From: Diplonema papillatum
Taxonomy: Eukaryota > Euglenozoa > Diplonemea > Diplonemida > Diplonemidae
Direction: 5' to 3'
Assembly (NCBI GenBank): GCA_030068145.1
Contig: JAPJBO010000511.1
Span: 62,001-126,000 of the forward strand
DNA: 64,000 nucleotides
Part shown: positions 5,469 to 32,474 of the stretch, one piece after another
Position numbering within the stretch: position 1 is the first letter of the stretch
Layout: every line of letters starts with the position of its first letter
Notes under the pieces: generated by a model
Database searches by the model: none
Seen by the model: only the letters and a program-made list of their open reading frames with translations
What the model was told of the DNA's origin: nothing
Made by a program: the position numbers and the translations under genes

Positions 5469-5484
5469 GGTGGGTATGTCCACC
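5469..5484 (-). promoter_or_regulatory. Histone 3' stem-loop of H3 copy 2
   Basis: mRNA sense GGTGG-ACATAC-CCACC, preceded by GG, 109 nt after the stop codon. Between stop and stem-loop lies a second possible hairpin (GGTGA...TCACC). Confidence 0.7.
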
Positions 5485-5593
5485 CCAGAATCAAGGCAAA
5501 TAGGTGATGCTGCGCTCACCATCTCGGGTTCTGGTCAGCCGTGGTGTCAATGGGGGAAAGAAGGCGATTCGGTGGAAAAATCGATCAACCTTA

Positions 5594-6025
5594 CTACAAA
5601 AGGTCGCCACGGATGCGGCGGCAGTAGCTGAGATCCTTCCAAGTGAGGGTCTTCTTGTTGCGGTGGAGCTGAAGGATGACAGCGCCCTCGAACACGCTGA
5701 CCAAGTAGCTCTCCGTAGCTTCCTGGAGGGCCTCGAGTGCGGTCGGCTTGAACCAAATCGACACTTTGTTGGCCTCCATGGTCTTCCTCACCAGTCTCTG
5801 GAACGGCGCCTTCTGCAGGAGAAGCTTCGTAGACTTCTGGAACTTCTTGATCTGGCGCGTCGCGACAGTTCCCGGCTTCCACTTCCTCGGCGTTCCGTCC
5901 TTCTTCAAGGATTTGGTCTTCGGCTTAGTCGTCGACTTCGACTTCGATTTCTTCGACTTCTTCGTCACAGCCCCGCTCTTCGGAGCTTTGCTGCCAGAGG
6001 CCTTCAGTGCAGACGAACGCGGCAT
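5594..6025 (-). CDS. H3: Divergent histone H3, copy 2 (143 aa)
   Basis: Protein identical to copy 1, with the tail signature KSTTKPKTKSLKK. The DNA is nearly identical through the coding region and for a few bases past the TAG stop, then the flanks diverge completely. The upstream region carries a 250-bp class tandem repeat (6215-6715). The conserved stem-loop follows at 5469-5484. Confidence 0.95.
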   Translation of the reverse strand: MPRSSALKASGSKAPKSGAVTKKSKKSKSKSTTKPKTKSLKKDGTPRKWKPGTVATRQIKKFQKSTKLLLQKAPFQRLVRKTMEANKVSIWFKPTALEALQEATESYLVSVFEGAVILQLHRNKKTLTWKDLSYCRRIRGDLL

Positions 6026-6214
6026 TTTGTTCTCTTAACTCTCTTTTTCGTGGAAGCTGTTGTTTTGAGTGAGCATGAGCACAAGTAAAAAAAGAAGTGA
6101 ACGGGGTGGTGCGAGTAGCAGTTTGAACTTGATATGCTGCAACGATCTTTGACGATAGACTGTCCAGGTCGCTACCGACTACCCTTCTGCACGCGTCGTG
6201 TCGTGCTTCGGTCG

Positions 6215-6715
6215 CTGATTGCCGCGCGTACCGTTTGCCTCCGCGCGCTTCACGTCTGCTGTGGAGAGTCTCACGAGCCCGAGGATTCACCAGATGATTC
6301 GGCGCACTCCTTTTCTCCCTCGCGGCAGTCCCCGCGGCCGGGGTCTCGATTCCTCTTCGAGACCTCTTGCCTTCGCGAGCTTCACGTCTGCTCTGGAGAG
6401 TCTCACGAGACCGAGGAATCACCTGATGATTCGGCGCACTCCTTTTCTGCAGTCCTCGATTCCTCTTCGAGACCTCTTGCCTCCGCGCGCTTCACGTCTG
6501 CTGTGGAGAGTCTCACGAGCCGGAGGATTCACCAGATGATTCGGCGCACTCATTTTCTCCCTCGCGGGCAGTCCCCGCGGCCGGGGTCTCGATTCCTCTT
6601 CGAGACCTCTTGCCTTCGCGCGCTGCACGTCTGCTCTGGAGAGTCTCACGAGACCGAGGAATCACCTGATGATTCGGCGCACTCCATTTCTGCAGTCCTC
6701 GATTCCTCTTCGATC
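6215..6715. repeat. Tandem duplication, about 250 bp x 2, each of two half-units
   Basis: The pattern TTCACGTCTGCTNTGGAGAG followed by a CTGATGATTCGGCGCAC-like segment occurs four times, alternating between two half-unit types. It lies in the upstream region of H3 copy 2. Frames through it are by-products of the repeat. Confidence 0.85.
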
Positions 6716-6854
6716 CCACTTGCCTTCGCCTGCCCATCTTCGCGGCTCCGCTTCGGTTGGAAGACGAAATGCTCGCTGCTCCCTATTTTCTACGAATTTC
6801 CCCTTACGCAGCAGTCAGAAAAAAGGAAGAACGTGAAGTGAGACGAGTGCTGTT

Positions 6855-6870
6855 GGTGGGTACCTCCACC
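6855..6870 (-). promoter_or_regulatory. Histone 3' stem-loop of H3 copy 3
   Basis: mRNA sense GGTGG-AGGTAC-CCACC, 102 nt after the stop. The segment between stop and stem-loop resembles that of copy 2. Confidence 0.7.
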
Positions 6871-6972
6871 CCAGGGTCACGAGAAGGTGAAGCTGCGCTT
6901 ACCATCACGAATCCTGGTTAGCCGTGGGGGGGGTGAGGGAATGGAGAAGAGGAGATAGCGCGGACAAATCTT

Positions 6973-7404
6973 CTACAAAAGGTCGCCACGGATGCGGCGG
7001 CAGTAGCTGAGATCCTTCCAAGTGAGGGTCTTCTTGTTGCGGTGGAGCTGAAGGATGACAGCGCCCTCGAACACGCTGACCAAGTAGCTCTCCGTAGCTT
7101 CCTGGAGGGCCTCGAGTGCGGTCGGCTTGAACCAAATCGACACTTTGTTGGCCTCCATGGTCTTCCTCACCAGTCTCTGGAACGGCGCCTTCTGCAGGAG
7201 AAGCTTCGTAGACTTCTGGAACTTCTTGATCTGGCGCGTCGCGACAGTTCCCGGCTTCCACTTCCTCGGCGTTCCGTCCTTCTTCAAGGATTTGGTCTTC
7301 GGCTTAGTCGTCGACTTCGACTTCGATTTCTTCGACTTCTTCGTCACAGCTCCGCTCTTCGGAGCTTTGCTGCCAGAGGCCTTCAGTGCAGACGAACGCG
7401 GCAT
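6973..7404 (-). CDS. H3: Divergent histone H3, copy 3 (143 aa)
   Basis: Protein identical to copies 1 and 2. The frame is open 44 codons further upstream (to 7536), but the start at 7404 (MPRSSA) is the one shared by all eight copies, so it is preferred. A purine-rich leader (AACCAAAGGGAAAC) precedes the ATG, similar in character to the other histone leaders. Confidence 0.95.
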   Translation of the reverse strand: MPRSSALKASGSKAPKSGAVTKKSKKSKSKSTTKPKTKSLKKDGTPRKWKPGTVATRQIKKFQKSTKLLLQKAPFQRLVRKTMEANKVSIWFKPTALEALQEATESYLVSVFEGAVILQLHRNKKTLTWKDLSYCRRIRGDLL

Positions 7405-7829
7405 GTTTCCCTTTGGTTTTTCGTGCAAGAGACTGTGTTGTTCACAGAGATAAAATGTCCAGAATTTGTTGATCAACGCCTGATTGGCCTTGGCTGTTCT
7501 CATCATCACTCGGATGATTGAATAGACGTCCCCCACCTGACTGGTGTCTCCAAACGAGGATTCGCGAGCCGAAGCCCGTTCGTCGCTGGAAACGGATAAG
7601 CTACGGATCCGAAGACCCTAACCCCACAAGGGAGCAGATGCCGTCTTCCCCCCCCCCCATCATCATTGGATAAGTAAAGCGACAACACGAGTAGTGGTAT
7701 TTCATTGTTGCGGCCTCCCACCTATTCTGCACCTCTCGTGTCACTGCACTAAGTCAGACCAGAGTCAAACTCAACAGGGTCTTCCTTCCCCGCTGGCATT
7801 CTCAATCAAGACCGTTGAAGTAAGGTGAA
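7405..7829. other. Intergenic, between H3 copy 3 and the YR retrotransposon
   Basis: This would hold the H3 copy 3 promoter on the minus strand. I see no gene, and only a short C-run near 7650. Confidence 0.5.
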
Positions 7830-7899
7830 CGTTTAATTCAGCTAATTTCGTGCAAGCGCCGGCAGGAGCGAGATCTACCAAGCAGCTTCCTTCGATTTT
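7830..7899 (+). repeat. Left terminal repeat A1 of the YR retrotransposon
   Basis: 70 bp identical to 12825-12894. It starts CGTTTAATTCAGC and ends CTTCGATTTT. Confidence 0.92.
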
Positions 7900-8018
7900 G
7901 TTTGGTATCTCGTGACTGTCGCTTCCCGAAACTGACTTGAACCGAAAAGCAAGTACGGGTGCGGCAAGTCTCTAGGGACCATGCCGCTCTGCATCGGAGC
8001 ATGCGAGCGTCCTCAGCG

Positions 8019-8958
8019 ACTTCTCCGGAAGAGGGCCGTGCGCCCTTCCCAGAGGCTGTCTCCGTGACTCCTCCGGAAGAGGGCCATGTGCCCTGTCCCA
8101 GAGACTGTCCTTGTGACTTCTCCGGAAGAGGGCCGTGCGCCCTTCCCAGAGACTGCCCATGTGGCTTCTCCGGAAGAGGGCCGTGCGCCCTTCCCAGAGG
8201 CTGTCTCCGTGACTCCTCCGGAAGAGGGCCGTGTGCCCTGTCCCAGAGACTGTCCCTGTGACTTCTCCGGAAGAGGGCCGTGCGCCCTTCCCAGAGGCTG
8301 TCTCCGTGACTCCTCCGGAAGAGGGCCATGTGCCCTGTCCCAGAGACTGTCCTTGTGACTTCTCCGGAAGAGGGCCGTGCGCCCTTCCCAGAGACTGCCC
8401 ATGTGGCTTCTCCGGAAGAGGGCCGTGCGCCCTTCCCAGAGGCTGTCTCCGTGACTCCTCCGGAAGAGGGCCGTGTGCCCTGTCCCAGAGACTGTCCTTG
8501 TGACTTCTCCGGAAGAGGGCCGTGCGCCCTTCCCAGAGGCTGTCTCCGTGACTCCTCCGGAAGAGGGCCGTGCGCCCTGTCCCAGAGACTGTCCTTGTGA
8601 CTTCTCCGGAAGAGGGCCGTGCGCCCTTCCCAGAGACTGCCCATGTGGCTTCTCCGGAAGAGGGCCGTGCGCCCTTCCCAGAGGCTGTCTCCGTGACTCC
8701 TCCGGAAGAGGGCCGTGTGCCCTGTCCCAGAGACTGTCCTTGTGACTTCTCCGGAAGAGGGCCGTGCGCCCTTCCCAGAGGCTGTCTCCGTGACTCCTCC
8801 GGAAGAGGGCCGTGCGCCCTGTCCCAGAGACTGTCCTTGTGACTTCTCCGGAAGAGGGCCGTGCGCCCTTCCCAGAGGCTGTCTCCGTGACTCCTCCGGA
8901 AGAGGGCCGTGTGTCCTGTCCCAGAGACTGTCCTTGTGACTTCTCCGGAAGAGGGCCG
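8019..8958. repeat. Minisatellite, 48-49 bp unit, in the leader of the YR retrotransposon
   Basis: About 19 units centred on CTCCGGAAGAGGGCCGTG. Two unit types differ at GAGGCTGTCTCCGTGA versus GAGACTGTCCTTGTGA. Identical blocks recur at alternating 97 and 145 bp spacings, giving a higher-order period of about 242 bp (five units). All frames are open on both strands because of composition, including a 520-codon antisense frame. I do not call these genes. Confidence 0.95.
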
Positions 8959-9048
8959 TGAGCCCTTCTCAGTCAAGGTATTGCCTGCATGATCTCTCAA
9001 GGGAGGGGCCCCTACTGTTCCACAGGTGTCGTGAGAAAGAAGGTAAGC

Positions 9049-10164
9049 ATGTCTGGAGTCGCACGGTTTTGGGAGGGCAGAGCCGAGGTGTTGCTGTCCG
9101 ACAGCGGGGAGACCCCCAGGCTGGACCTCCTTGAGGACTGGGATCAGGCGTCGGCAGACAAGGTGTGGGCGGACATCAAAGAGGTGGCAGCGGCGAAGTG
9201 GAAGGAAGAGGCGTCTGCGCCGCGTTTGTACAAGATCCTCCGCGTAGTGACGTTTGAAGCGTGGGCGGCCGGCCTGCGGGGGGAGGCAGCGGAGACCTTC
9301 GTGAAAGTGACGTCCCACCTGGGTGGCTTGGCCTACGGGTCCCTCCTGGAGTGTGCCGTCAACGACGGCGTGCACAACGTGGACGCGAAGCTGCCGCCGA
9401 TCTTTCGGTCTGCCGCGAAGAAGTGGTACAGGTGCCACGAGCAAAGGGAGAAGGAGGAGGCCGTGAGGCGGGAGGACGCGAGGGCAGCCAGGCCGAAGGA
9501 CCAGCCGCTCCGGGTGCTTGAGGTGGCACAACAACTCAGAAGGTATGGCCTGGAAGACCTGCCGGCTGCCCTCAAGCCGTCACACGTGGACCTCAACGCC
9601 TTCCAGCATCGCCTCGAGAGGCAGGATGTCGCCCTGCCGTTTGTCGACGTCGCGAAGCCGCCGTTTACCCCTGCTGAGCCCGGTTGGGTGTCGTCGGAAA
9701 GAAAGGTCCTAACATCGATCCAGCTTGTTTGTGCTCTTCAGCGGCTGTTCGTGATAGCGGGGATGGCGGGGGCGTTTGGGGAGGAACCGTTGCCCGTGAT
9801 TTTCGGCTACCCTGCGCTTGTCGCGGACATCGCGGCTCAGTTCGGGTCGAGCCTGGCGAGACAGTATGACGAGGCTGTCCGTCGCGCTTTTGCCAGCGTG
9901 ACGAAGGCGGTACCCGGCGCGAGGGTCTTGGAGGAAGCCCGCGGCCGCCTCCTGCGCCTCGATGACCAGACAGTCATGCATCTGCAGATGAAGCTGATGG
10001 CGCAGTCCGCGAAGAAGCCCGAAGCCAGGCAGCCGGCAGCGAAGAAGGAGTCCAACCCGCCAGCTTGGAGGGACAGACAGCAGCACAGGGGCAAAGGTGT
10101 TGTCAGGCCGAGCGCGGGAGCTGAAGGCGCTCCTCCCGCGAAGAGGCAAAACACTACGAGGTGA
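9049..10164 (+). CDS. Gag-like ORF1 of the YR retrotransposon (371 aa)
   Basis: First ORF of the element. The product is largely helical and rich in Ala, Arg and Glu. A Lys/Arg/Gln-rich C terminus (AKKPEARQPAAKKE to AKRQNTTR) is suited to nucleic-acid binding. No CCHC knuckle is visible. DIRS-type elements encode a Gag-like protein at this position. I chose the ATG at 9049 (MSGVARFWEGR). An in-frame ATG at 8989 would add 20 residues that lie just outside the minisatellite. The stop at 10164 is 78 bp before the first ATG of the next frame. Confidence 0.75.
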   Translation: MSGVARFWEGRAEVLLSDSGETPRLDLLEDWDQASADKVWADIKEVAAAKWKEEASAPRLYKILRVVTFEAWAAGLRGEAAETFVKVTSHLGGLAYGSLLECAVNDGVHNVDAKLPPIFRSAAKKWYRCHEQREKEEAVRREDARAARPKDQPLRVLEVAQQLRRYGLEDLPAALKPSHVDLNAFQHRLERQDVALPFVDVAKPPFTPAEPGWVSSERKVLTSIQLVCALQRLFVIAGMAGAFGEEPLPVIFGYPALVADIAAQFGSSLARQYDEAVRRAFASVTKAVPGARVLEEARGRLLRLDDQTVMHLQMKLMAQSAKKPEARQPAAKKESNPPAWRDRQQHRGKGVVRPSAGAEGAPPAKRQNTTR

Positions 10165-10242
10165 CTAGTCAGTCCCCTGCCCGAATCGCCTCGCCCTGCC
10201 GTGGCGAGGGCGTCCCCAAGCAGTCTGGACCCCGAGCCGGTC

Positions 10243-12408
10243 ATGCTAGGTCCCTCCCGCACCCCTCCCCATCAAGACCATCAACATCATCAGCATCATG
10301 AATATCATCAACATCATCAACATCATCAACATCATCATCATCATCGTCGACAAGGTCAGCAACAAGCGAAGGAAGGGCGCTGCTCTGCAGTGTCGGGATC
10401 TTGTCTTCCCCCCCTCAAACCCGCAGAGGTTCACGACGTGGTGGAAAGGTACAAGTTTGCTGAAGAGTGTGCTTCGGAAGCGATGCCTTCGGCGAAGGAA
10501 GTGGAGCGGATGGATGACGCGCTGTATTCTGCGATCCTTTATTGTGCAAGGACCCCAGTGAAGGAGGCCCAGCAGATGCGATCAGACTTCCTTGTGCGTT
10601 GGCGAAGAAGGTCCCTCGAGCTCGGGAAGAGAGAGGGGGACTCGTGCCATGTCGAACTGCTCGCCGAGCTAGTCGCAGACCTGGGCGTGGTCGGTGCCGA
10701 CGACCTGTTGGAGAACCTGAGGACAGCGTGTCCGATGGTCGGGTGTGTAGGATACGAGTCTCTGTATCCGTCTGCTGGCCCAGGCGTGCCCGAACTCACG
10801 ACCGAGCAGCTCCTGCGCCGCCAAAGCGATGTACTTGCGCGCTCGGCGAAGGCCATCCGGTCAGACAACCCGGCGAACAAGGGTGCTGTCTGGGACTCCA
10901 TCCAGAGGGAGCTGGAGGCGGGCTACATGGTAGAGGTGCAGGTGCCTCCCCCGAATGCTGTGTTTCTGCGGCGTTTTGTTATTCGCCAGGTGAAAGCCGA
11001 CCAGGAGGGTTGTCCGGTGAAACTGCGTCCGTGCGACGATGGTCGCATGGCCCTTGTGAACAAAGCCGTCTTCACTACCACGAAGGTGCGCCTCGATACA
11101 GCGGACATGTTCGCGGAGGTGGCGAGGCTGCTGGCGGCCAGTTCGCCCGACGGCTCCTCATTCTACTCAGTAGGGCTGGACCATAAAGAGGCTTACCGCC
11201 AGCTCCGGGCCAGGAATGATGAAGTGTGCAGGTGCGTGGTGGCTGAGGATCCGAATGGGGCGATGCGTTTCTTCCGCATGGAAAGGTTGTCCTTCGGCGA
11301 GGCGGCGGCCGTCACGCACTACAACGCCTTCGCCAAGGTGCTGGCGAGCGTTGTTCGCCTTGGTCTAAAGGTGCCTCTATGTCAGTATTTTGACGATTTC
11401 GCGGCGCCCTGTAGGTCGGAGGATGACAAGGTGCTGGCGGACGTCTTAGAGCTCCTTCAGGATATTCTGCGTACTACGTTCAACCCGGAGAAAACGACAC
11501 AGGGCAGGGCATTTCGCCACCTGGGCCTAGTGTTCGCGGTAACTGCGGAGGCAGTGAGCATCTCTCTCTCCGGGGCAAGAAAAAACGGCTTGGTATCTCG
11601 GCTGAAAGACGTTCTGGCGCGTGACTCCCTTGCACCGGGTGAGGCAGCGGCGCTTGCAGGCAAGCTCGGCTTCGCTTCGACGGCGCTGTATGGCAAGGTT
11701 GGCCGGGTGCCTCTCCAGCCTATATTTAGGCGCGCCAATTCTTCGTCGACCTTTGTCGGCTTCAAGCTCGGCGAGCCCCTTGAGGTTGCCTTGAGCTGGT
11801 GGGTTAAAGTGTTGGAGGGGGACCCGAGCACGTTCCAGAGATCGGTGCCGGTGAGGGCGGTCCAGCGTGGCTGTGCCATCAGGTACGTCCTCCTCACCGA
11901 TGCTTGCTTGTATGGTTTAGGCGCCGTCTGTATAGTACTGGAAGACGATCGTCCGGTGGCTGTCGAGTACTTCTCCTATGCGGTTCCGCAGGGGTCCGGT
12001 CTGCCGATCCATGCTCTGGAGTTCGCGGCGGTCTCTGTGGCCTTTCGACTATGGTTCACGGGGCGGAAGGACTACACTGTCTCGGTCTGGGTAGACAATC
12101 AGACAGTGCTTGGGAACCTGGTTCAAGGGAAGTCCAGGACGAAACAGCTCCTGGCTCCTGTTCATGCGCTCTGGGAGTTCCTGGCGCAAGCGAGAGCCAG
12201 GGTTTGGTTCCAATGGGTTCCCGGGGATCGGAACATTGCGGATCTCCCGAGCAGGCTGGAACACAGATGGTCTGAAGTTGGCTTCTGTGGCCTCAGGCCG
12301 AGAGAGCGCGTCCTCGAGCAAGGTGTAGTTGAGAGGGAAATTGCTAACCTATTAAGGGAGGAACGGCGCTTCGTCAGGTGCGCTTCCGCGCGTCTGGCCT
12401 CTGCTTAA
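10243..12408 (+). CDS. Reverse transcriptase / RNase H of the YR retrotransposon (721 aa)
   Basis: Copies the element RNA into DNA. The RT active site is YFDD at residues 382-385, preceded by palm and finger segments (PCDDGRMALVNKAVF, FYSVGLDHKEAYRQL). The RNase H domain follows with the catalytic set D553 (LLTDACLYGLG), E593 (ALEFAAVSVAF), D618 (VWVDNQTVL) and D667 (DRNIADLPSRL). This is the usual DIRS arrangement. The first ATG is at 10243; the frame itself is open from further upstream without an ATG. Residues soon after the start form a His-rich run encoded by a CATCAA-type microsatellite. No maturase or methyltransferase is fused. Confidence 0.93.
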   Translation: MLGPSRTPPHQDHQHHQHHEYHQHHQHHQHHHHHRRQGQQQAKEGRCSAVSGSCLPPLKPAEVHDVVERYKFAEECASEAMPSAKEVERMDDALYSAILYCARTPVKEAQQMRSDFLVRWRRRSLELGKREGDSCHVELLAELVADLGVVGADDLLENLRTACPMVGCVGYESLYPSAGPGVPELTTEQLLRRQSDVLARSAKAIRSDNPANKGAVWDSIQRELEAGYMVEVQVPPPNAVFLRRFVIRQVKADQEGCPVKLRPCDDGRMALVNKAVFTTTKVRLDTADMFAEVARLLAASSPDGSSFYSVGLDHKEAYRQLRARNDEVCRCVVAEDPNGAMRFFRMERLSFGEAAAVTHYNAFAKVLASVVRLGLKVPLCQYFDDFAAPCRSEDDKVLADVLELLQDILRTTFNPEKTTQGRAFRHLGLVFAVTAEAVSISLSGARKNGLVSRLKDVLARDSLAPGEAAALAGKLGFASTALYGKVGRVPLQPIFRRANSSSTFVGFKLGEPLEVALSWWVKVLEGDPSTFQRSVPVRAVQRGCAIRYVLLTDACLYGLGAVCIVLEDDRPVAVEYFSYAVPQGSGLPIHALEFAAVSVAFRLWFTGRKDYTVSVWVDNQTVLGNLVQGKSRTKQLLAPVHALWEFLAQARARVWFQWVPGDRNIADLPSRLEHRWSEVGFCGLRPRERVLEQGVVEREIANLLREERRFVRCASARLASA
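10267..10348 (+). repeat. (CATCAA)-type microsatellite encoding a His/Gln run
   Basis: Imperfect CATCAACATCATCAT repeats inside the RT frame, translating to HQHHQHHEYHQHH and similar. Confidence 0.85.
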
Positions 12409-12486
12409 GAAGGGAGGGAATATTCGTTCCAGTCTGCTTTCTCCCGACTTGAGCTGCTGGCTAGGACCATTGGGATAGAAGCCATT

Positions 12487-12820
12487 GGGACAATCCCATG
12501 GTAGCGTGAAGAGCGCGATCGGGCCCACGGCAGCGCAAGCCCGTGCCCACACGCCGGTCGAGCTGGCAACGGTGGTTGCGCACGCAGCCGTCTGCTTGCG
12601 GTCGCGCCGGCTACGCCCGCAACTGCAGCCGCCATGGCGGCCACATTTCGCCGGGCAGCTCATCCCATCGCGCCAGCAATCCAGTTAAGGAACACAACCG
12701 AGGCACATTGTGAAATGTATTCGAGGTTTGCTTGGTAGAAGCTATTAAACAGAAGTTAAATTCGGACGCCGGTTTCGGCGACGACGGCTCAGAAGGCAAC
12801 CGTACCGAGGAAGAATTTAA
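12487..12820 (+). repeat. Internal repeat B1 of the YR retrotransposon
   Basis: 334 bp identical to 14368-14701. Begins GGGACAATCCCATGG, itself a short palindrome, and ends GAAGAATTTAA. Confidence 0.92.
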
Positions 12821-12824
12821 TGAG

Positions 12825-12894
12825 CGTTTAATTCAGCTAATTTCGTGCAAGCGCCGGCAGGAGCGAGATCTACCAAGCAGCTTCCTTCGATTTT
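12825..12894 (+). repeat. Internal repeat A2 of the YR retrotransposon
   Basis: Lies 4 bp after B1 (TGAG between them) and is identical to A1. The B1-A2 unit reconstructs the right-to-left junction of a circular form. Confidence 0.92.
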
Positions 12895-12931
12895 CCCACC
12901 CACCCACCCAGGAAGCGGAAGGAAGGAAGGG

Positions 12932-14269
12932 ATGTATTGGGATATTGGGCAGCTCGCCTTTGTGGAAGGTGAGTTCTCTGATGAAGAATGGAGAGAGCTG
13001 ACAGTGTCGCTGCAGGGGCTCCCGGTGGACTTTCCCCTCCTGTCGCTAAGAAATCTTCCCTACAACTATCTCCCTGGCCCCTGCCGTCCCAAGGTTTCCG
13101 TGTACCTTCGCCTCCAGGGCCTGCTCAGAGGGGCAGGAGGTCTCGAGGAGGCCTCGCGGGAGACCCGGAAGATCGAGGGCACGCCCCGGGGGAGACCAGC
13201 GAAGGCGAAGCTGACGGCACAGCGCCGGGCGCTGAGGAGTGCGCTTAGAACTCACGTTCCGGAGCGCGCACGGGACCACATAAGGTCCCTGTATACAGCG
13301 GCGAAGACGAAGGCCGTCTACAGCTCCAATACAGCGGAGTATGTGGCGTGGTGCAGCGAGGACGGAGTCGAGCCATATCCAACCTCGGTTCGCCGCCTGG
13401 AGGTTTTTGGCGGCTGCCTGTCCCTGATGGAGTCGTCGATGTACAAGACACCACACGCTCTTATAAAGGCGATTGTCGCGGAGAATTTGGCACGGGGCTT
13501 TGTCCTCCACGACCCAGTGGGCGACATCCCACGCCTTCTGAGGGCGCTTGAGAAGGAGGCTCCCGATACGGTGCAGAAGGAGCCGCTGGGTCTGGAGCAG
13601 TTCCGTCACGTTTTCCGCGCAGTGCGTAGCGTGGACGAGTACTCCGCCGCGCTGCAGTTGCTCGGGGAGCATTTCACTTTGCTCAGATCCTGCAGCATGC
13701 AGTCGATCAGGACGGAGGATATCCGCCTGAGCAAGGATAGAGTGAGAGTCGTCTGGCACTGCTCCAAGGGGAAAGGGAACTGTACGAGGGAGCTCTGCTT
13801 CGACAGAATAGACCTGGTTCCCCCCCTTTTGCTGCCGGATGCACCAAATGGAGCTCCGGCCCGGATCAGGTACTGTCCGGTTGAGGTCTTTTCGCTGCTG
13901 AAGAAAATGGCGCTGGCAAGGGGCGCCGAGTTGCTGTGCCCTTTCCCCACGTACGCCAAGTACTACGGTGTTCTCTGCGGGACGGAGGCCAGACGAGGGG
14001 TGCTGGATAGCCTGCGCAACTTGAGCTCGGCTGGACGGTGCGGCAACCCGTATGGGACCCACAGCGCGAGAGTGGGCGGGTGCTGTACCCTCTTGAAGGC
14101 GGGGATGGATCCCGACCAGGTCGTCACAATGGGCGACTGGGCGGATGCGGCGATGATTCGAAGGTACGGCGAGAAGGTTCTCCGTGACCCGCACTGTGTC
14201 CAAGCGGTCAGGTTTTATTGTCCGGTGACTTTGGCACACGTGTACACGTCAAGAGGTGCAGCACTCTAG
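12932..14269 (+). CDS. Tyrosine recombinase of the YR retrotransposon (445 aa)
   Basis: Site-specific recombinase expected to integrate the circular DNA intermediate. Catalytic residues are recognisable: R252 (LLRSCSMQSIR), H377-x-x-R380 (THSARVGG), W403 (GDWADAAM) and the nucleophile Y412 (IRRYG). A Lys in the KGKGN hairpin may be the beta2-3 lysine. Residues about 100-215 form the helical core-binding domain, with AKTKAVYSSNTAEYVAWC typical of its start. The frame is open from 12845 within A2, but the first ATG is at 12932. The gene sits between A2 and B2, separated from the RT frame by the B1-A2 unit. Confidence 0.92.
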   Translation: MYWDIGQLAFVEGEFSDEEWRELTVSLQGLPVDFPLLSLRNLPYNYLPGPCRPKVSVYLRLQGLLRGAGGLEEASRETRKIEGTPRGRPAKAKLTAQRRALRSALRTHVPERARDHIRSLYTAAKTKAVYSSNTAEYVAWCSEDGVEPYPTSVRRLEVFGGCLSLMESSMYKTPHALIKAIVAENLARGFVLHDPVGDIPRLLRALEKEAPDTVQKEPLGLEQFRHVFRAVRSVDEYSAALQLLGEHFTLLRSCSMQSIRTEDIRLSKDRVRVVWHCSKGKGNCTRELCFDRIDLVPPLLLPDAPNGAPARIRYCPVEVFSLLKKMALARGAELLCPFPTYAKYYGVLCGTEARRGVLDSLRNLSSAGRCGNPYGTHSARVGGCCTLLKAGMDPDQVVTMGDWADAAMIRRYGEKVLRDPHCVQAVRFYCPVTLAHVYTSRGAAL

Positions 14270-14859: not shown

Positions 14860-15595
14860 GTTATTGAAAGAGTAGCGTTGGCACTCTTACAGGTTCGTTC
14901 CCTCGTAGCTCACCGGGAACGGGCACTCCAGTGAAACAGGGTATGTTACCGTTTCAGGTTTGGATTTTGGGAGCATTGCCTCATGTGAATTCTGAGACCA
15001 ATTTCTCCCACGAATGGTGAACCAGCTTTGGTGACCGCTGTTCCGCAGTGGATACATCGATATGTTTCCCGACTTGCGGATCGTGCTCGGTCATTGGAAG
15101 GGGCGCGGACAGTCGACGAATGGTCTGGTTGAGATGAGGAAGCTCCTCGTTCGGCTGTGGATGTGGTATGACTGGACGTGGTTGTGGTTGCGGATGCGGT
15201 TGAAGACGAGTCGGTGAGGTCGCTGCGCTGGCGCTGAGGTTCCGGTGAGGCTCGTACCTCCAGGTGGTCACCTTCGTCTCGCGCGCGGACAGAGTGAGAT
15301 GAAGAAGCTCTTCGTTCGGCTGTGGATGTGGTATACCGAAGTTCTCAGCGGTTCTCTTCTGAGTTTCGTCTGAGGCCGACTGCCGGACATCGTAGGAAAA
15401 CTAACTTCTGCGAAAGCATTCGCAGTTTTAAGGCTTCCACTACACTTCCACGGCTCACCCGCTGAACGAGTGTGGGGCATCACAAATACAACGCCTCGTT
15501 GAGCAACACGAACGTTAAAAACTTGCAGCTTCTACTCGCAACACGAAATTAAAAATGAAAGGGGAGGATGCTTCGTCTTTTTTACTTCATTTCTT
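14860..15595. other. Intergenic with short duplications
   Basis: A 40-bp segment containing GCTCNTCGTTCGGCTGTGG is repeated at about 15132-15172 and 15296-15336. A short hairpin CGTTCCC...GGGAACG lies near 14900. No gene supported. Confidence 0.5.
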
Positions 15596-15611
15596 GGTGG
15601 GTAAGTCCACC
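15596..15611 (-). promoter_or_regulatory. Histone 3' stem-loop of H3 copy 4
   Basis: mRNA sense GGTGG-ACTTAC-CCACC, 89 nt after the stop. A second hairpin (AGTGC-CCT-GCACT) lies just before it, and the sequence after it is purine-rich (AAGAAATGAAG), as in a histone downstream element. Confidence 0.75.
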
Positions 15612-15700
15612 CCAGCTAAAAGTGCAGGGCACTCTCGCGTGGATAAAAAGAGAGGAAACTTGCGGCACAAGAAAAAGGTGGCGCTCGGGACAGCAGATGA

Positions 15701-16135
15701 TCAGAGAAGATCACCACGGATGCGGCGGCAGTAGCTGAGATCCTTCCAAGTGAGGGTCTTCTTGTTGCGGTGGAGCTGAAGGATGACAGCGCCCTCGAAC
15801 ACGCTGACCAAGTAGCTCTCCGTAGCTTCCTGGAGGGCCTCGAGTGCGGTCGGCTTGAACCAAATCGCCACTTTGTTGGCCTCCATGGTCTTCCTCACCA
15901 GTCTCTGGAACGGCGCCTTCTGCAGGAGAAGCTTCGTAGACTTCTGGAACTTCTTGATCTGGCGCGTGGCGACAGTTCCCGGCTTCCACTTCCTCGGCGT
16001 TCCGTCCTTCTTCAACGCTTTGGTCGTCTTCGGCTTGGCCTTCGACTTGGACTTCGACTTCTTCGACTTCTTCGTCACAGCTCCGCTCTTCGGAGCTTTG
16101 CTGCCAGAGGCCTTCAGTGCAGACGAACGCGGCAT
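15701..16135 (-). CDS. H3: Divergent histone H3, copy 4 (144 aa)
   Basis: Same fold as copy 1 but of the second tail type: KSKAKPKTTKALKK, one residue longer. The loop-1 segment reads NKVAIWF instead of NKVSIWF. The 3' end around the stop (CTTCTCTGA) differs from copies 1-3, matching instead copies 5 and 6. The leader resembles that of copy 6 (AACACAAAGGAAGG before the ATG). Confidence 0.95.
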   Translation of the reverse strand: MPRSSALKASGSKAPKSGAVTKKSKKSKSKSKAKPKTTKALKKDGTPRKWKPGTVATRQIKKFQKSTKLLLQKAPFQRLVRKTMEANKVAIWFKPTALEALQEATESYLVSVFEGAVILQLHRNKKTLTWKDLSYCRRIRGDLL

Positions 16136-16868
16136 GTTTCCTTCCTTTGTGTTAGCGTAGAATGGCTGTAGTAAAAGACAATTGTTAGAGTTAAAGTTCG
16201 CTTGAAATTCCGTTTTCATAGGAACGAATTGCGAGAGTGCTCTGAAAACAACTTAAAGCATAGAATACAGGTCAAACACTTTAGCGGACAAGCTTTCATC
16301 CTGAGATAACTGGCAATATTTTTGGTCGACGAAATATAATTAGCAAGTATCAGGATATCGTTGCATTGGTCAGGTACTGCTGTGTGTGGTGCTGCCTAAG
16401 GCACTGCGAGTCAATCACAAAAAGTAACGGGAGAGCACTAACGAATTTGGATGCCTCGCGGTGCTTCTGGAGTGTCGTGGAGCTGCCATCGTAGGTCCTG
16501 TCATGGTCACATTTTGCTGTTGGATTGCCAGTACAGGCAGTGTGCGCGCGATCAGCCGGCTTGCCGGCTGATTAAATCTCGAGCCCTTTTTTTGGCAGAC
16601 TCACACAAAATCGGCCGATTTTCAACAGTGTAAGCTTTGGCTATGCCGCTCAATCAGCTTGATGCACCGGCAAGATGTTGTCGCAAACCCCTTCTGATCG
16701 GCAGACCTCCCAAAAGTCAGCCGGCTGATTATCAGCCGGTCAGTTTTTTAAGAATCTTTTTTTTCCGGCTGCAATCAGCCGCTTTTTTCCTATCCAGCCT
16801 ACGTATAGCGAGCCGACGATATTTCAACGAGACAAAAAGGATTCTAAAGGGACTGCGTCAGATTTCTT
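16136..16868. other. Intergenic, AT-richer stretch
   Basis: Contains a dispersed motif GAGTTAAAGTTCGCTTGAAA at about 16190-16210, which recurs around 45500, 47222, 49645 and 53720. Short palindromic CAGCCGGCTG-like segments occur near 16550-16735. No gene supported. Confidence 0.5.
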
Positions 16869-16884
16869 GGTGGGAATGTCCACC
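16869..16884 (-). promoter_or_regulatory. Histone 3' stem-loop of H3 copy 5
   Basis: mRNA sense GGTGG-ACATTC-CCACC, 60 nt after the stop. A longer hairpin with arms 16886-16900 and 16902-16918 (about 15 bp, two bulges) sits directly in front of it in the transcript. Confidence 0.75.
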
Positions 16885-16944
16885 CCATTCGAAAAGTGCG
16901 ACGCACTTTTTCGAAATGGATGAAAAGAGGGAACGAGCGGACGA

Positions 16945-20405: not shown

Positions 20406-20421
20406 GGTGGGAATGTCCACC
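20406..20421 (-). promoter_or_regulatory. Histone 3' stem-loop of H3 copy 7
   Basis: mRNA sense GGTGG-ACATTC-CCACC, 80 nt after the stop. A perfect 10-bp hairpin (CTGGAGTTGC at 20426-20435 with GCAACTCCAG at 20448-20457) lies between stop and stem-loop. Confidence 0.75.
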
Positions 20422-20501
20422 CCAGCTGGAGTTGCAGCGAAAGGGGCGCAACTCCAGTTGGAAAGGGAGGGAGAGAGGTGACAGACTTGCCGCTGCACTT
20501 T

Positions 20502-21445: not shown

Positions 21446-21509
21446 CGAGTCGCGTTGAGGGAACAGAAGAAGGGCGGGAACGAGGGCACAACCGAACAGG
21501 TCAGCTACT

Positions 21510-21525
21510 GGTGGGCAGATCCACC
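21510..21525 (-). promoter_or_regulatory. Histone 3' stem-loop of H3 copy 8
   Basis: mRNA sense GGTGG-ATCTGC-CCACC, 72 nt after the stop. Confidence 0.72.
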
Positions 21526-21597
21526 CCAGGAGAATCATGGATCTCGCTGGCTGGCGTCAGGAAAGGAAACCATTCTAGAGAACCAAAGCTGGGGAGC

Positions 21598-22032
21598 CTA
21601 CAAAAGGTCGCCACGGATGCGGCGGCAGTAGCTGAGATCCTTCCAAGTGAGGGTCTTCTTGTTGCGGTGGAGCTGAAGGATGACAGCGCCCTCGAACACG
21701 CTGACCAAGTAGCTCTCCGTAGCTTCCTGGAGGGCCTCGAGTGCGGTCGGCTTGAACCAAATCGACACTTTGTTGGCCTCCATGGTCTTCCTCACCAGTC
21801 TCTGGAACGGCGCCTTCTGCAGGAGAAGCTTCGTAGACTTCTGGAACTTCTTGATCTGGCGCGTCGCGACAGTTCCCGGCTTCCACTTCCTCGGCGTTCC
21901 GTCCTTCTTCAACGCTTTGGTCGTCTTCGGCTTGGCCTTCGACTTGGACTTCGACTTCTTCGACTTCTTCGTCACAGCTCCGCTCTTCGGAGCTTTGCTG
22001 CCAGAGGCCTTCAGTGCAGACGAACGCGGCAT
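21598..22032 (-). CDS. H3: Divergent histone H3, copy 8 (144 aa)
   Basis: Hybrid of the two main types: tail of copies 4/6/7 (KSKAKPKTTKALKK) with the NKVSIWF loop of copies 1-3 and 5. Start at 22032 by comparison with the other copies. This is the last H3 before the H4 genes. Confidence 0.95.
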   Translation of the reverse strand: MPRSSALKASGSKAPKSGAVTKKSKKSKSKSKAKPKTTKALKKDGTPRKWKPGTVATRQIKKFQKSTKLLLQKAPFQRLVRKTMEANKVSIWFKPTALEALQEATESYLVSVFEGAVILQLHRNKKTLTWKDLSYCRRIRGDLL

Positions 22033-23111
22033 TTTTCCTTTGAAGCGCAAAAACTGGATTGAGGGAATTCGCTCGACTTGGCTGGTTGCTGCCAGCAGTT
22101 GACAGCTTCAAACAAGCTGACAACGCAGCAACATGGTGGCAACGGCTTTCGCTTTCCTGCAAAAAAGGCCGGCACTGGCAGCGCGACTCAAACCACCTCT
22201 CATGGTATAAAGTTGGCAGGTGGACTACACCCTGGGTCAGGCTTCAAAATGCCACAACGAAAAAACTAAACCCTCAAACTTGGTTCGAGCAGAAAAAAGT
22301 CGAACCTCCGACTTTCCCTGCGGATGCTTGCCGGTAAGCCTTGCACACGTAATAGACCCGCAGGTCCGTGTTCCAAGACGGACCAAAAAAAAAGGAGTCT
22401 AATACGTGTGCATGATCGCTGCGCTTGATATGAGCCTGCCGACCGCAGAACCACGCCAAGCCAATGGGAGCATTGAGTTGTTTTGAGTACGTGAACACAT
22501 GGAATAGCATGATTTCTCGTAGATGACGTCGTCACCTTCCATTGCGTCGTCAAGAGGGAGGACTTCTGTGCGGGGTTGGGTCTTCTTGTGATTCCGATCG
22601 TGTCGGCGAGCTTATCGCCGACACGATGCTCGGTTCACTTTCGAGGGCATCGGTGCGCTGGAGGAGGTCGGTCTCTTCTGTGAGCTACTAGTCTACGGGC
22701 AATGGGGACATTGAGCTCGTTTGGCGCAAACGAGCCGCACGGAATAGCATGCACTATAATAGGTACAACGCACCTCTTCAACGCATTCCTATCCTGAACG
22801 ATCCGAGCAAAACTGAGGCAGCCGGCAAGCTGCCTCACGTGTGGTATACATACACCTACTGTAGCCACGTGACATGCTACTAGTACCGTATGCTGCTACG
22901 TGTCCTCGTGGTTGTGAGTATTGCTCACCCGCCTCAGCAGGTGTGCAGAGTCGCCCGCCATCCAGGCAACTTCCGCAAACACCGGTACGACGCAGAAGAG
23001 CTCTGAGAATCGGGAGAAAGCGAAGGGTGAGGGGCAAAAAGAACTGAATTCGCCTCTCTTTTCCGCGGCATCTTCTACTCACACGCCCGGCAAAGAGAAG
23101 CCAAGCGTCAT
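22033..23111. other. Intergenic between H3 and H4 groups
   Basis: Holds two loose copies of the GCATTGAG...GGAATAGCATG motif (22473-22511 and 22712-22753) and a strong hairpin, ATCGTGTCGGCGA / TCGCCGACACGAT (13 bp, 22596-22628). In the second motif copy the central part forms its own hairpin CTCGTTTG-GCG-CAAACGAG. No protein-coding gene seen. Confidence 0.5.
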
Positions 23112-23127
23112 GGTGGGCAGCTCCACC
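23112..23127 (-). promoter_or_regulatory. Histone 3' stem-loop of H4 copy 1
   Basis: mRNA sense GGTGG-AGCTGC-CCACC, 51 nt after the stop. Preceded by a hairpin GGGAC-CAAC-GTCCC. Confidence 0.75.
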
Positions 23128-23178
23128 CCGGACCCGGGACGTTGGTCCCGCCGGTGAAGAAAGAAGGAAGACAAGAGC

Positions 23179-23502
23179 TTACGCGACGGCGTAGAGGGTG
23201 CGGCCCTGCTTCTTGAGGGAGAAGAGGATGTCGGCGGGGCGGACGGTCTTCCTGCCGGTCATCTCGAGCAGCGCGGCGGTGTCGGCCATGACGTTCTCGA
23301 CGAACGAGGTGAGGATCGTGGTCGCCTCCTTGTACACGGTCGCCGCCAGCCTGCGGCAGCCGCCCCTCCTCGCGATCCTGCGGATGCTGCCCTTCGTGAT
23401 GCCCCTGGTGCTCGCCTTCGACTTACCGCTCGAGCTCTTCGCGACGGATCCCTGCTTCGTTCTGCCGGTGTTCTTCGACGCGGACGACTTGGCGGCAGGC
23501 AT
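23179..23502 (-). CDS. H4: Divergent histone H4, copy 1 (107 aa)
   Basis: Core histone partner of H3. Residues 34-107 align without gaps to canonical H4: GITKGSIRRIARRGG, then the alpha2 segment ILTSFVENVMADTAALLE, KTVRPADILFSL and KKQGRTLYAVA. The R45 position, which contacts DNA, is kept (R51). The tail (1-33) is Ser/Lys-rich, about six residues longer than usual, and lacks both SGRGKGGKGLG and the KRHRK basic patch that contacts the H2A/H2B acidic patch and chromatin enzymes. C-terminal YAVA replaces YGFGG. The start at 23502 (MPAAKSSASKN) is shared by all four copies; the open frame upstream to 23610 is leader. All four H4 proteins are identical. Confidence 0.95.
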   Translation of the reverse strand: MPAAKSSASKNTGRTKQGSVAKSSSGKSKASTRGITKGSIRRIARRGGCRRLAATVYKEATTILTSFVENVMADTAALLEMTGRKTVRPADILFSLKKQGRTLYAVA

Positions 23503-24910: not shown

Positions 24911-27064
<2,154 letters not shown>

Positions 27065-28785: not shown

Positions 28786-29758
28786 CGTCGTTTTGTGTAG
28801 AAAATTTGAGCCGACCACCCTTCCCCGGCCGTTTGTCCCTGTGTCGTTCGTGCAGTGGACTAGCCAACCCACAGGGAAAAAGCGACTTTTGCCGGGGAAA
28901 TTTTTTTTTCCCCCGGGCCACTGTTTGTTGTTGTTTTTTTTTTTTTGGTAACTGAGGGGGGAAATGCATGACGCACGACCACAAGCCGGACCAAACTTGT
29001 GAGTGTGGGACTGTCCGTTTTTCCGTCGGGACTTACCCACTAAAACCACCTAACTCAGAGATTCGAGAGATGCAGAGGGTGCTACCCACGGTTCTCACCG
29101 TGTACGCGGCGCGATGGAGGGGCCACCCTCCACGCGGGACTTGGCCAGTCCTTGCGCTGTCTGCCGCAGGGGTGCCCGGTGTGTGAAATTTTTTTTTGGG
29201 GAAAAAAAAAATTTTCCCCTGTGTAGGAAAATCCCTGCACCACAACTCACCCTGGTTTTGTTTGGAGGGTAGAAACTCGATTGAAACGGTTTAAAAAGTA
29301 CCGGGCGGCTCGGCGGACTCCCTTTACGCCGTGTTGCGCGAGGTCGGGAGCTCTTGCGGCTTGCGACTTGAAACTGCGTGCTGCTCTCACAGGATGCACC
29401 CGGTAGGTACGCAGCGACACACCGGGGTACAAGGGCCTATCAACCGTGGTGGGCTGACTTGTTCACAAGCACTAAACTGGTCCAACGCCGTCAAAAATTC
29501 ATGGGGCAGATGCCCTTGCGGACTTGAAGCTGTGTACAGGATGGACCCGGTAGAGACGCAGCGGCACCCTCCCTGGCGAGATCACGGATCCTTTCGGGTG
29601 TTGCATGATCTTCTGATGCGCCTTCAGGGAACATCGAATCCAAGACGAAAGCTAACTACGCCTGCGGGACCCGCTATGACCATGGCTTTGGAACGAATGG
29701 ATGCGAAAAGAGGCGAAAGGGAAGCATTTTCTGTTCAGACTTTTTACGCGTTTGTTAT
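28786..29758. other. Intergenic
   Basis: Contains a perfect A/T palindrome GGGGAAAA...TTTTCCCC near 29198-29219 and a duplication of CTTGCGNACTTGAARCTG (29352-29376 and 29515-29533). No gene supported. Confidence 0.45.
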
Positions 29759-29774
29759 GGTGGGCAGTACCACC
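29759..29774 (-). promoter_or_regulatory. Histone 3' stem-loop of H4 copy 2
   Basis: mRNA sense GGTGG-TACTGC-CCACC, 59 nt after the stop. Preceded by CGAGGCTCG, which is shared with H4 copies 3 and 4. Confidence 0.75.
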
Positions 29775-29833
29775 CCGGACTGAGAGCGAGAACGAGCCTC
29801 GGTTTCAGCCGGTGCGAGAAGGAAGGAAAGGGC

Positions 29834-30157
29834 TTACGCGACGGCGTAGAGGGTGCGGCCCTGCTTCTTGAGGGAGAAGAGGATGTCGGCGGGGCGGACG
29901 GTCTTCCTGCCGGTCATCTCGAGCAGCGCGGCGGTGTCGGCCATGACGTTCTCGACGAACGAGGTGAGGATCGTGGTCGCCTCCTTGTACACGGTCGCCG
30001 CCAGTCTGCGGCAGCCGCCCCTCCTCGCGATCCTGCGGATGCTGCCCTTCGTGATGCCCCTGGTGCTCGCCTTCGACTTACCGCTCGAGCTCTTCGCGAC
30101 GGATCCCTGCTTCGTTCTGCCGGTGTTCTTCGACGCGGACGACTTGGCAGCAGGCAT
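29834..30157 (-). CDS. H4: Divergent histone H4, copy 2 (107 aa)
   Basis: Protein identical to H4 copy 1; the DNA differs by a few silent bases. The leader directly upstream of the ATG (AACCCACAAACTTCTTTCAC) is shared with copy 3 but not with copies 1 and 4. Confidence 0.95.
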   Translation of the reverse strand: MPAAKSSASKNTGRTKQGSVAKSSSGKSKASTRGITKGSIRRIARRGGCRRLAATVYKEATTILTSFVENVMADTAALLEMTGRKTVRPADILFSLKKQGRTLYAVA

Positions 30158-31043
30158 TGTGAAAGAAGTTTGTGGGTTTGTTTTTTGTCTTGATGAACTG
30201 CGTAGTTTTGGTTCATTCTTCTAACGTAGCAGTATTGTCGACAACTTGTTTTTGTCTTGAGAACTGCGGTTGTGGTACCAAGAAAGGGCAGCGCAGCAAA
30301 CAGTCCATTACCTGCTCCGTGCACGAGCAATGAAAGGTAACCACTCCTGCTCAACAGCAACAGCCAAAGTCCGCACCGCGAAAGCGAGCGGAGGCAAAAG
30401 TTGGCCTGGAAATGACCATTTTGACCTCATCCGCATCGCTGACTCTTCCTACGGACGACGTCATAAAGGTACACACCGTCGTTGTGAAGGAGAAACCACG
30501 GCGCATACTCTTTTTCAGTGGGAAAGTTCGCCTCAAGCCCAGGGGGGGTTTGAAGTCTCCGGTGTCCTTCGGCAATTCCAGATTGTGACAAGATTTCCAG
30601 AGAGCTGCGAAGCCGTTGGGCACTTTCGATGTTCTGGGCCAGACCTTGTACTTGCAATTGCCAGTACCTTGAATACAGTCCAGAGGAGTTGCCCAAGATT
30701 TCCAGAGAGTTCCTTGCCTTGTGCACTTTCGATGTTCTGGGCCAGACCTTGTACTTGCAATTGCCAGTACCTTGAATACAGTACCATCGTCGGCTGGGTC
30801 AGACCTTGGAGATACCATTCTCCAGGTACCTCGAATGCAGTAGTTACCATTCTCCAGGTACCTCGAATGCAGTGTTGTCGTTGTCTGGACGGTACGTGTT
30901 GCGCCGCTACTCGACGGGCCTCCGTTGTTGCAGCACCACGCTTTTCATCTGACTCGGTCTGGCCAACACATACCCGAATCCCGGTCCGCGCAATGAACAA
31001 GAGGTGGAAGGGGTAAGCGGATGCAAACTTTTTTTTCAACTTC
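30158..31043. other. Intergenic with direct duplications
   Basis: An approximately 120-bp block (TTTCGATGTTCTGGGCCAGA through TTGAATACAGT) occurs twice at 30580-30785. A 30-bp block (CCATTCTCCAGGTACCTCGA) occurs twice at 30815-30873. No gene seen. Confidence 0.6.
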
Positions 31044-31059
31044 GGTGGACAGAACCACC
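31044..31059 (-). promoter_or_regulatory. Histone 3' stem-loop of H4 copy 3
   Basis: mRNA sense GGTGG-TTCTGT-CCACC, 94 nt after the stop. Same loop as H4 copy 4. Confidence 0.75.
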
Positions 31060-31153
31060 CCCGGCGCGCAGAAAAAGCGAGAACGAGCCTCGATTCGACC
31101 GGTGCGAGAGAAAACAAATAAATAAAGGGGAGGGAGCAATGCTCAAAGGGTTT

Positions 31154-31477
31154 TTACGCGACGGCGTAGAGGGTGCGGCCCTGCTTCTTGAGGGAGAAGA
31201 GGATGTCGGCGGGGCGGACGGTCTTCCTGCCGGTCATCTCGAGCAGCGCGGCGGTGTCGGCCATGACGTTCTCGACGAACGAGGTGAGGATCGTGGTCGC
31301 CTCCTTGTACACGGTCGCCGCCAGCCTGCGGCAGCCGCCCCTCCTCGCGATCCTGCGGATGCTGCCCTTCGTGATGCCCCTGGTGCTCGCCTTCGACTTA
31401 CCGCTCGAGCTCTTCGCGACGGATCCCTGCTTCGTTCTGCCGGTGTTCTTCGACGCGGACGACTTGGCGGCAGGCAT
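31154..31477 (-). CDS. H4: Divergent histone H4, copy 3 (107 aa)
   Basis: Protein identical to the other H4 copies. Shares leader sequence with copy 2 and 3' UTR elements with copies 2 and 4. The flanks further out are unrelated. Confidence 0.95.
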   Translation of the reverse strand: MPAAKSSASKNTGRTKQGSVAKSSSGKSKASTRGITKGSIRRIARRGGCRRLAATVYKEATTILTSFVENVMADTAALLEMTGRKTVRPADILFSLKKQGRTLYAVA

Positions 31478-31742
31478 TGTGAAAGAAGTTTGTGGGTTTG
31501 TTTTTTATGGATTGACCTTTTGGGTTCGGTTGTGTTCAGAGAAGGCTGGCTGGATGGATCCCCTTGCCACGCCGCTCGACAAAAAAATGCGCATTTGACG
31601 ATTTCAACTTGCAGCGATGCCGAGCACGCGTCGCAAACGTTGCTCCGACGTGTGTCGGCGAAAGGGACAGATTCGAGGAGAACCCTGCCTCAGCGCAAAG
31701 AGCGTTACTTTGTCGGGTGATTTGCAAGAACGCTCAACATCG

Positions 31743-31825
31743 CACTGGTCCCGTCTGCGCCGTGTTTCGGTCATTTAAGCCACGGACACAACAGGCGGGC
31801 CATCATCAGCGCGGAACCTGAGCCT
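31743..31825 (-). repeat. Dispersed repeat family R3 (CPVC/CPWL coding trace), copy 1
   Basis: Related to 57497-57610, 61318-61440 and 63655-63760. On the minus strand the better copies read RCPVCR...RCPWL, a Cys-rich pattern. The family may be a decayed coding segment of a mobile element. Confidence 0.55.
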
Positions 31826-31865
31826 CACCGTTGCGCCGTGTGGTTCCAACTCTGACTTGGTTCAT

Positions 31866-32033
31866 GCACACACCGCTGGTAACCGCTCAGTTGACCTGGG
31901 TCGCACACACCGCTGGTAACCGCTCGGTTGACCTAGTTCGCACACACCGCTGTTAACCGCTCAGTTGACCTAGTTCGCACACACCGCTGGTAACCGCTCG
32001 GTTGACCTGGTTCGCACACACCGCTGTTAACTA
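31866..32033. repeat. 38-bp tandem repeat x 4-5
   Basis: Units CACACACCGCTGGTAACCGC + TCAGTTGACCTGGTTCG with small changes. Confidence 0.9.
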
Positions 32034-32167
32034 GTTGGGTTCTTAGGTCACCTGTATCCGCAGTTTTAAGGCCACGGGAAGTGAATTGAGTCAAGCACTT
32101 CGGGCGTGCATTCGCAACGGCGGTTGTCATCTGACTCGGCTCGACAGGCACCTAGTCCGACAACTTC

Positions 32168-32381
32168 GACTGTGAACCGCTTGAGCTTTTTATTCCCGAC
32201 TGTGAACCGCTTGAGCGTTTTGTTCCCGACACTGTGGACCGCTTGAGCTTTTATTCCCGACTGTTGACCGCTTGAGCTTTTTATTCCCGACTGTGAACCG
32301 CTTGAGCGTTTTATTCCCGACACTGTGGACCGCTTGAGCTTTTATTCCCGACACTGTGGACCGCTTGAGCTTTTTATTCCC
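32168..32381. repeat. About 30-bp tandem repeat x 7
   Basis: Units GACTGTGAACCGCTTGAGCT + TTTTATTCCC, alternating with CACTGTGGACC variants. Downstream of the H4 copy 4 stem-loop. Confidence 0.9.
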
Positions 32382-32458
32382 ATTCTAGTGCAGTCGTGAA
32401 CGCAAGATGGAACGGGGCGAAAACAAAATGCGTGTTGTGTTTTTAGGTCTTCTTTTAC

Positions 32459-32474
32459 GGTGGACAGAACCACC
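32459..32474 (-). promoter_or_regulatory. Histone 3' stem-loop of H4 copy 4
   Basis: mRNA sense GGTGG-TTCTGT-CCACC, 76 nt after the stop. Confidence 0.75.

Follow-up and report, generated by a model that had tools for sequence, protein, structure and literature searches.

Histone genes and a shared downstream hairpin

Analysis of a 64,000-nucleotide (nt) window from Diplonema (Paradiplonema) papillatum, a marine unicellular member of the Euglenozoa related to trypanosomes (contig JAPJBO010000511.1, positions 62,001-126,000), revealed 12 histone genes, eight for H3 and four for H4, arranged head to tail on the minus strand between window positions 4148 and 32874. Eleven of the 12 genes are followed by the same short inverted repeat, GGTGG-N6-CCACC, in which a first-pass annotation of this DNA had seen a divergent histone mRNA 3′ stem-loop. 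The results presented here give good support to the view that this repeat is a selected, histone-linked hairpin of the 3′ untranslated region (UTR), similar to the classical histone stem-loop.

The H3 genes were found at 4148-4579 (copy 1), 5594-6025 (copy 2), 6973-7404 (copy 3), 15701-16135 (copy 4), 16945-17388 (copy 5), 18995-19429 (copy 6), 20502-20936 (copy 7) and 21598-22032 (copy 8), and the H4 genes at 23179-23502 (copy 1), 29834-30157 (copy 2), 31154-31477 (copy 3) and 32551-32874 (copy 4). H3 copy 2 matched histone H3 in PDB (E 1.3e-28) and the family PF00125 (E 1.7e-27); H4 copy 3 matched histone H4 in PDB (E 2.7e-20) and did not reach PF00125 at E 0.001. H3 copies 3 to 8 and H4 copies 1, 2 and 4 were assigned by their reading frames and their sequence identity to the other copies of the same histone. 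The H3 proteins are 143-147 amino acids long, and the four H4 proteins are identical, with 107 amino acids. H3 and H4 are the only histone types found in the window. H3 copy 1 is the sole histone gene without the hairpin.

The window contains 11 copies of the motif GGTGG-N6-CCACC where 0.12 would be expected by chance, and none of 100 shuffles reached 11. All 11 sites lie 51-109 nt past a histone stop codon, at seven of the eight H3 genes and all four H4 genes, and the positions agree exactly with those given in the first-pass annotation. All hairpins are on the minus strand, and their scores are given in bits under a 22-nt model built from, and tested on, these same 11 histone sites. Among the H3 genes, the hairpin of copy 2 is at 5467-5488 (loop ACATAC, stem 109 nt past the stop in mRNA sense, 33.4 bits), that of copy 3 at 6853-6874 (AGGTAC, 102 nt, 32.5 bits), copy 4 at 15594-15615 (ACTTAC, 89 nt, 34.5 bits), copy 5 at 16867-16888 (ACATTC, 60 nt, 30.7 bits), copy 6 at 18896-18917 (ACTTAC, 81 nt, 34.5 bits), copy 7 at 20404-20425 (ACATTC, 80 nt, 34.1 bits) and copy 8 at 21508-21529 (ATCTGC, 72 nt, 33.3 bits). 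The H4 hairpins are at 23110-23131 for copy 1 (AGCTGC, 51 nt, 32.1 bits), 29757-29778 for copy 2 (TACTGC, 59 nt, 30.8 bits), 31042-31063 for copy 3 (TTCTGT, 94 nt, 29.3 bits) and 32457-32478 for copy 4 (TTCTGT, 76 nt, 28.3 bits).

Sequence and fold of the element

Comparison of the 11 sites in mRNA sense gave the full element (C/A)(T/C/G)GGGGTGG-(A/T)NNTN(C/T)-CCACC-(A/G). The invariant core is GGGGUGG-NNNUNN-CCACC: the stretch from GG to CC has 18 positions, of which 13 are identical in all 11 genes, one of them in the loop. As the first-pass annotation had described, GG directly precedes the stem at every site and none of the five stem pairs ever varies; the second stem base is G throughout. 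Immediately 3′ of the stem, eight genes have A and three have G. The loop was held to vary, and eight distinct loops do occur; it is not free, however, as its position 4 (third of the central four bases) is T in 11/11 and its ends are restricted to A or T at position 1 and C or T at position 6.

The minimum-energy fold of all 11 RNAs contains the five-pair GGUGG/CCACC stem with a six-base loop. A sixth pair, between loop positions 1 and 6, would be A-C, U-C or U-U and is never a standard pair in any of the 10 distinct rows, in line with the earlier statement that it is never Watson-Crick. The six-base loop may act as an unpaired closing position (A-C, U-C or U-U) followed by a tetraloop, NNUN. 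An alternative pairing in the flanks, of TGGG with CCCA, was rejected, as inspection of the aligned sites by eye showed that the H4 genes do not keep it.

Specificity in the window and in the genome

Apart from GGGGTGG and CCACC and sequences contained in them, the first 200 nt past the stop codon hold no word of at least five bases common to all 11 hairpin genes; H3 copy 1 was excluded from this comparison and from those of UTR identity below. A 6-mer common to the 11 UTRs was found in none of 2000 mononucleotide shuffles, and two control regions, the 200 nt preceding the ATG and the stretch 150-450 nt past the stop, contained no word of five or more bases common to the 11 genes.

Pattern counts across the genome were run on an assembly of 271,365,524 bases in 2910 contigs. 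The totals given in passages of the Diplonema papillatum genome paper are 280,293,864 bp and 6181 contigs of at least 200 bp (PMC10161547), and the smaller size of the assembly used here is probably due to missing short contigs. The bare motif GGTGG-N6-CCACC is not specific genome-wide, as the 271 Mb contain 962 copies of it and 356 of its reversed control; its density is about 3.5 per Mb in the genome versus 172 per Mb in the window. Among the bare-motif sites listed for contigs C1 to C20, at least two have loops that fit NNNTNY, at C4:165427-165442 (-) and C9:374964-374979 (-), and the 16 nt of the former are identical to the hairpin of H4 copy 1. Both sites may mark further histone genes.

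The histone sites scored 28.3-34.5 bits with the 22-nt model built from them, and the best other site scored 12.5 bits in 76 kb, which comprised the remainder of the window and four background loci with the bare motif. With up to two mismatches allowed in the 13 fixed positions, a single non-histone place was found in the window, at 56922 (two mismatches). These scores bear on the idea that the element is a 3′-end or termination signal of co-oriented genes, for example one that determines processing or the poly(A) site, without any part in cell-cycle control. The histone genes do run head to tail on one strand, and the sequence past the hairpin, pooled over the 11 genes, is A-rich in its first 10 nt (A 43%, purines 67%) and pyrimidine-rich at 30-50 nt (purines 25-35%), the latter in favour of such a signal. 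Within the window, however, the full element occurs at histone genes only, in a comparison that did not include the 3′ ends of other confirmed genes, and a general 3′-end signal is accordingly a quite improbable explanation.

Selection versus copying

Comparison of the coding sequences revealed identities of 96.3-99.8% among H3 copies 2 to 8 and 99.4-100% among the H4 copies. Mean identity over the 100 nt preceding the ATG was 0.62 for H3 pairs and 0.59 for H4 pairs, with 0.58-0.59 for shuffled pairs; UTR and flank identities are from gapped alignments of short stretches, in which shuffled pairs score about 0.56-0.61. Across 4148-32874 the coding sequences are thus near-identical and the flanks far less alike, with short likenesses in some pairs, which suggests that conversion was largely limited to coding sequence. 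As far as the sequences indicate, the histone coding sequences seem to have been homogenised apart from their flanks.

Between stop codon and hairpin, none of the 28 H3-H4 pairs was above the best shuffled pair (mean 0.59 versus 0.61), whereas six of 21 H3 pairs and all six H4 pairs exceeded the shuffled maximum. The H3 and H4 3′ UTRs had been called otherwise unrelated in the first-pass annotation; this stands between the two families, whereas within each of them some copies are still alike there. In the 100 nt past the hairpin, five of 21 H3 pairs, none of the six H4 pairs and two of the 28 H3-H4 pairs were above the shuffled maximum, reaching at most 0.71 against 0.65-0.67.

These identities allow a reading without selection to be weighed, in which the element survives from recent gene duplication or conversion and was duplicated together with the coding sequences. 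The high coding identities and the within-family likeness from stop to hairpin indicate that copying is ongoing within families. However, H3 and H4 share the element in the same orientation and place with no other likeness between stop and hairpin, and there is little likeness past it; a copied remnant, which would need homologous H3 and H4 UTRs, is very unlikely. Copying alone is hardly credible as the explanation, and this judgement depends on the contrast of H3 with H4, not on likeness within families. One exact element at the same place in two unrelated gene families points to selection, and the earlier claim that the element is selected is upheld by its exact sharing despite otherwise unlike UTRs.

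Comparison with known histone stem-loops

Control of histone mRNAs through a terminal hairpin is regarded as ancient. The classical stem has six base pairs, beginning with GG and continuing with pyrimidines, and is closed by a tetraloop in which U at the third position is a defining feature. The element described here agrees with the animal stem-loop in its length of 16 nt, its GG start and CC end, its place within about 110 nt of the stop and its occurrence at multicopy H3 and H4 genes. It also has G as second stem base and, in all 11 genes, U as third base of the tetraloop. Likeness in size and ends had been recognised in the first-pass annotation; the invariant loop U had been missed and adds to the likeness.

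According to passages of PMC10388802, human SLBP makes base-specific hydrogen bonds solely to G7, the second stem base, and the minimal animal element has two adenines 5′ of the stem. The equivalent of G7 is kept in 11/11 genes here, so that a changed SLBP-RNA code, as suggested by the first-pass annotation, is not required. With the second stem G kept, A at the 3′ side in eight of 11 genes and the loop U, the element is closer to the classical form than the first-pass annotation held, and there is less reason to postulate a changed code. Room for changed recognition is left by the GG 5′ flank and by the variation at the first of the four central bases. In passages on C. elegans, the loop of four H2B genes is CUUA (PMC1924863), identical to the central four bases of H3 copies 4 and 6.

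Histone 3′ hairpins also occur outside animals. The hairpin described here belongs to a kind already known: Davila Lopez and Samuelsson reportedly described histone stem-loops and SLBP in protozoa in 2008 (RNA 14:1-10; Dictyostelium, alveolates, Trypanosoma and Trichomonas), which would include the sister lineage of diplonemids. A literature search at the level of titles and passages found no report of a diplonemid histone stem-loop, and the word 'histone' has no occurrence in the main text of the Diplonema genome paper (PMC10161547). Trypanosoma brucei has SLBP1 and SLBP2, with phosphorylation in S phase, and SLBP2 binds eIF4E2, according to passages of PMC6907760, PMC7139794 and PMC8021392. 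TbSLBP-2 is tabulated as a binder of the stem-loop motif in the histone mRNA 3′ UTR (PMC7139794, table entry), and SLBP2 is described in a passage as specifically associated with histone mRNAs (PMC8021392). The SLBP2-eIF4E2 pair comes from the same phylum and is a plausible type of reader for a hairpin in trans-spliced, polycistronic histone mRNAs. A loose motif scan of the window found no SLBP-like reading frame.

Other features of the window

A DIRS-like retroelement lies at 8989-14269 (+), between H3 copies 3 and 4. It contains a reverse transcriptase frame at 10201-12408 (RVT_1, E 1.5e-4) and, downstream of it, a tyrosine recombinase frame at 12845-14269 (Phage_integrase, E 7.6e-6), both matches being below the Pfam score cut-offs, and a frame at 8989-10164 without a Pfam match. 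The name DIRS is our assumption from the gene order. A tandem array at 8018-8972, near H3 copy 3, can be read in units of 97, 145 or 242 bases, the 242-base unit with 97% matches, with several reading frames open through it on either strand. A reading frame at 24911-27064 (-), which lies between H4 copies 1 and 2, encodes 717 amino acids, 200 of which are glutamines, with a longest run of 130. Isolated pieces of ribosomal RNA (rRNA), two of 28S (E 9.8e-8 and 7.2e-7, just below the Rfam cut-off) and one 5.8S-like, were found at 17614-17768 (+), 48661-48794 (+) and 62430-62475 (-); they fit the scattered rRNA reported for this genome, with about 3600 pieces of 28S rRNA according to a passage of PMC10161547.

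Interpretation of the hairpin

Overall, our analysis suggests that the element is probably a divergent diplonemid histone mRNA 3′ stem-loop, bound by an SLBP homologue that would control histone mRNA translation and decay in S phase. The homologue would bind the hairpin as RNA and might thereby tie the translation, the stability and perhaps the 3′-end formation of histone mRNAs to S phase. Passages of the genome paper describe Diplonema genes as lying in long co-oriented arrays that are co-transcribed, with a spliced leader on essentially all mRNAs, and post-transcriptional control is expected (PMC10161547). Genes in such arrays must be controlled after transcription, and the stem-loop reading would suit this.

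A number of observations weigh against the stem-loop reading. The first concerns the number of cases. At H3 copy 1, one of the eight H3 genes, GGTGG-N6-CCACC is absent up to 400 nt from the stop, and the 4,147 nt downstream of it contain only one relaxed GGNGG/CCNCC pair, 3,270 nt away. This gene differs from H3 copy 2 at five of 432 nt, and on visual inspection its upstream and downstream flanks both differ from those of copy 2. It could represent a replication-independent gene, or else a copy made without its flanks. Furthermore, the 11 sites count as fewer than 11 independent cases, as they belong to paralogues with UTR likeness within each family.

The second concerns the form of the element. 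Unlike the animal stem-loop, it has inner arms of UGG/CCA in place of pyrimidine/purine arms, five base pairs with a never-paired sixth position in place of a six-pair stem, and GG in 11/11 genes in place of AA 5′ of the stem. The first base of the central four may be C, G, T or A, whereas SLBP specificity for the first loop nucleotide is reported by a title in the reference list of PMC1924863. At E up to 10, the Rfam histone hairpin family matched neither the entire window nor a 36-nt stretch holding one of the 11 hairpins, in a search run without a positive control; by the tested criteria the element is thus a variant and not a standard histone stem-loop. The Rfam accession of the animal element is RF00032.

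The third concerns the evidence for RNA structure. The fold energy of 43-nt pieces is ordinary compared with shuffles (z -1.77 to +0.65), as is expected for so short an element. No compensatory change was found, all five stem pairs being invariant, so that pairing is without covariation support; a stem that never varies offers no covariation for or against pairing. The case for an RNA structure is based on the exact inverted repeat and on likeness to a known element. An invariant stem fits a primary-sequence element equally well, and the invariant GG stretches the fixed sequence past the hairpin. The element might therefore be a histone-specific 3′ UTR element unrelated by descent to the stem-loop, through which another protein (PUF, CCCH or RRM type) would control S-phase translation of polyadenylated histone mRNAs, comparable to the cell-cycle control that 3′ UTRs exert in trypanosomatids. 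Passages of PMC2691400 describe trypanosomatid histone mRNAs as polyadenylated and those of Leishmania as UTR-regulated as well; the regulation agrees with such an element, and the polyadenylation is a further point against the stem-loop. However, the element agrees with the classical stem-loop in size, in its GG and CC ends, in the loop U and in position, and the sister group is known to have SLBP homologues; an unrelated element read by another protein is unlikely for these reasons.

The remaining point concerns the 3′ end of the mRNA. Over the 60 nt that follow the hairpin, no 6-mer is present in more than three of the 11 genes, and the best 5-mers, in five of 11, are within the shuffle range (up to six of 11). 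No recognisable U7-type downstream element was thus found, in contrast to the animal stem-loop with its U7 small nuclear ribonucleoprotein, within the limit that a degenerate element could escape this comparison. A stronger form of the stem-loop reading is that non-polyadenylated histone mRNAs end at a rewritten stem-loop, cut from polycistronic, trans-spliced transcripts without U7. A co-evolved SLBP would then read the new stem, the unpaired sixth position and the GG flank, and the result would be a second, diverged SLBP-RNA code bridging animals and trypanosomes. What speaks for an mRNA end at the hairpin is its position, far nearer the stop than the usual 3′ end, the median 3′ UTR in Diplonema being about 800 bp in a passage of PMC10161547. 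The lack of a U7-type element and the polyadenylation of trypanosomatid histone mRNAs oppose it, and we regard this stronger form as rather unlikely.

Read as a divergent histone stem-loop, the element has several implications for Euglenozoa. A strict histone hairpin in the sister group of trypanosomes is a candidate target, at the level of sequence, for euglenozoan SLBPs, proteins that trypanosomes retain despite polyadenylated trypanosomatid histone mRNAs. The multicopy H3 and H4 genes with eight different loops constitute a natural mutational series, and the hairpin allows a test of how much the RNA may diverge when its second stem G and loop U are retained. It would also provide an entry point to S-phase control in an organism whose cells seemingly hardly regulate transcription initiation.

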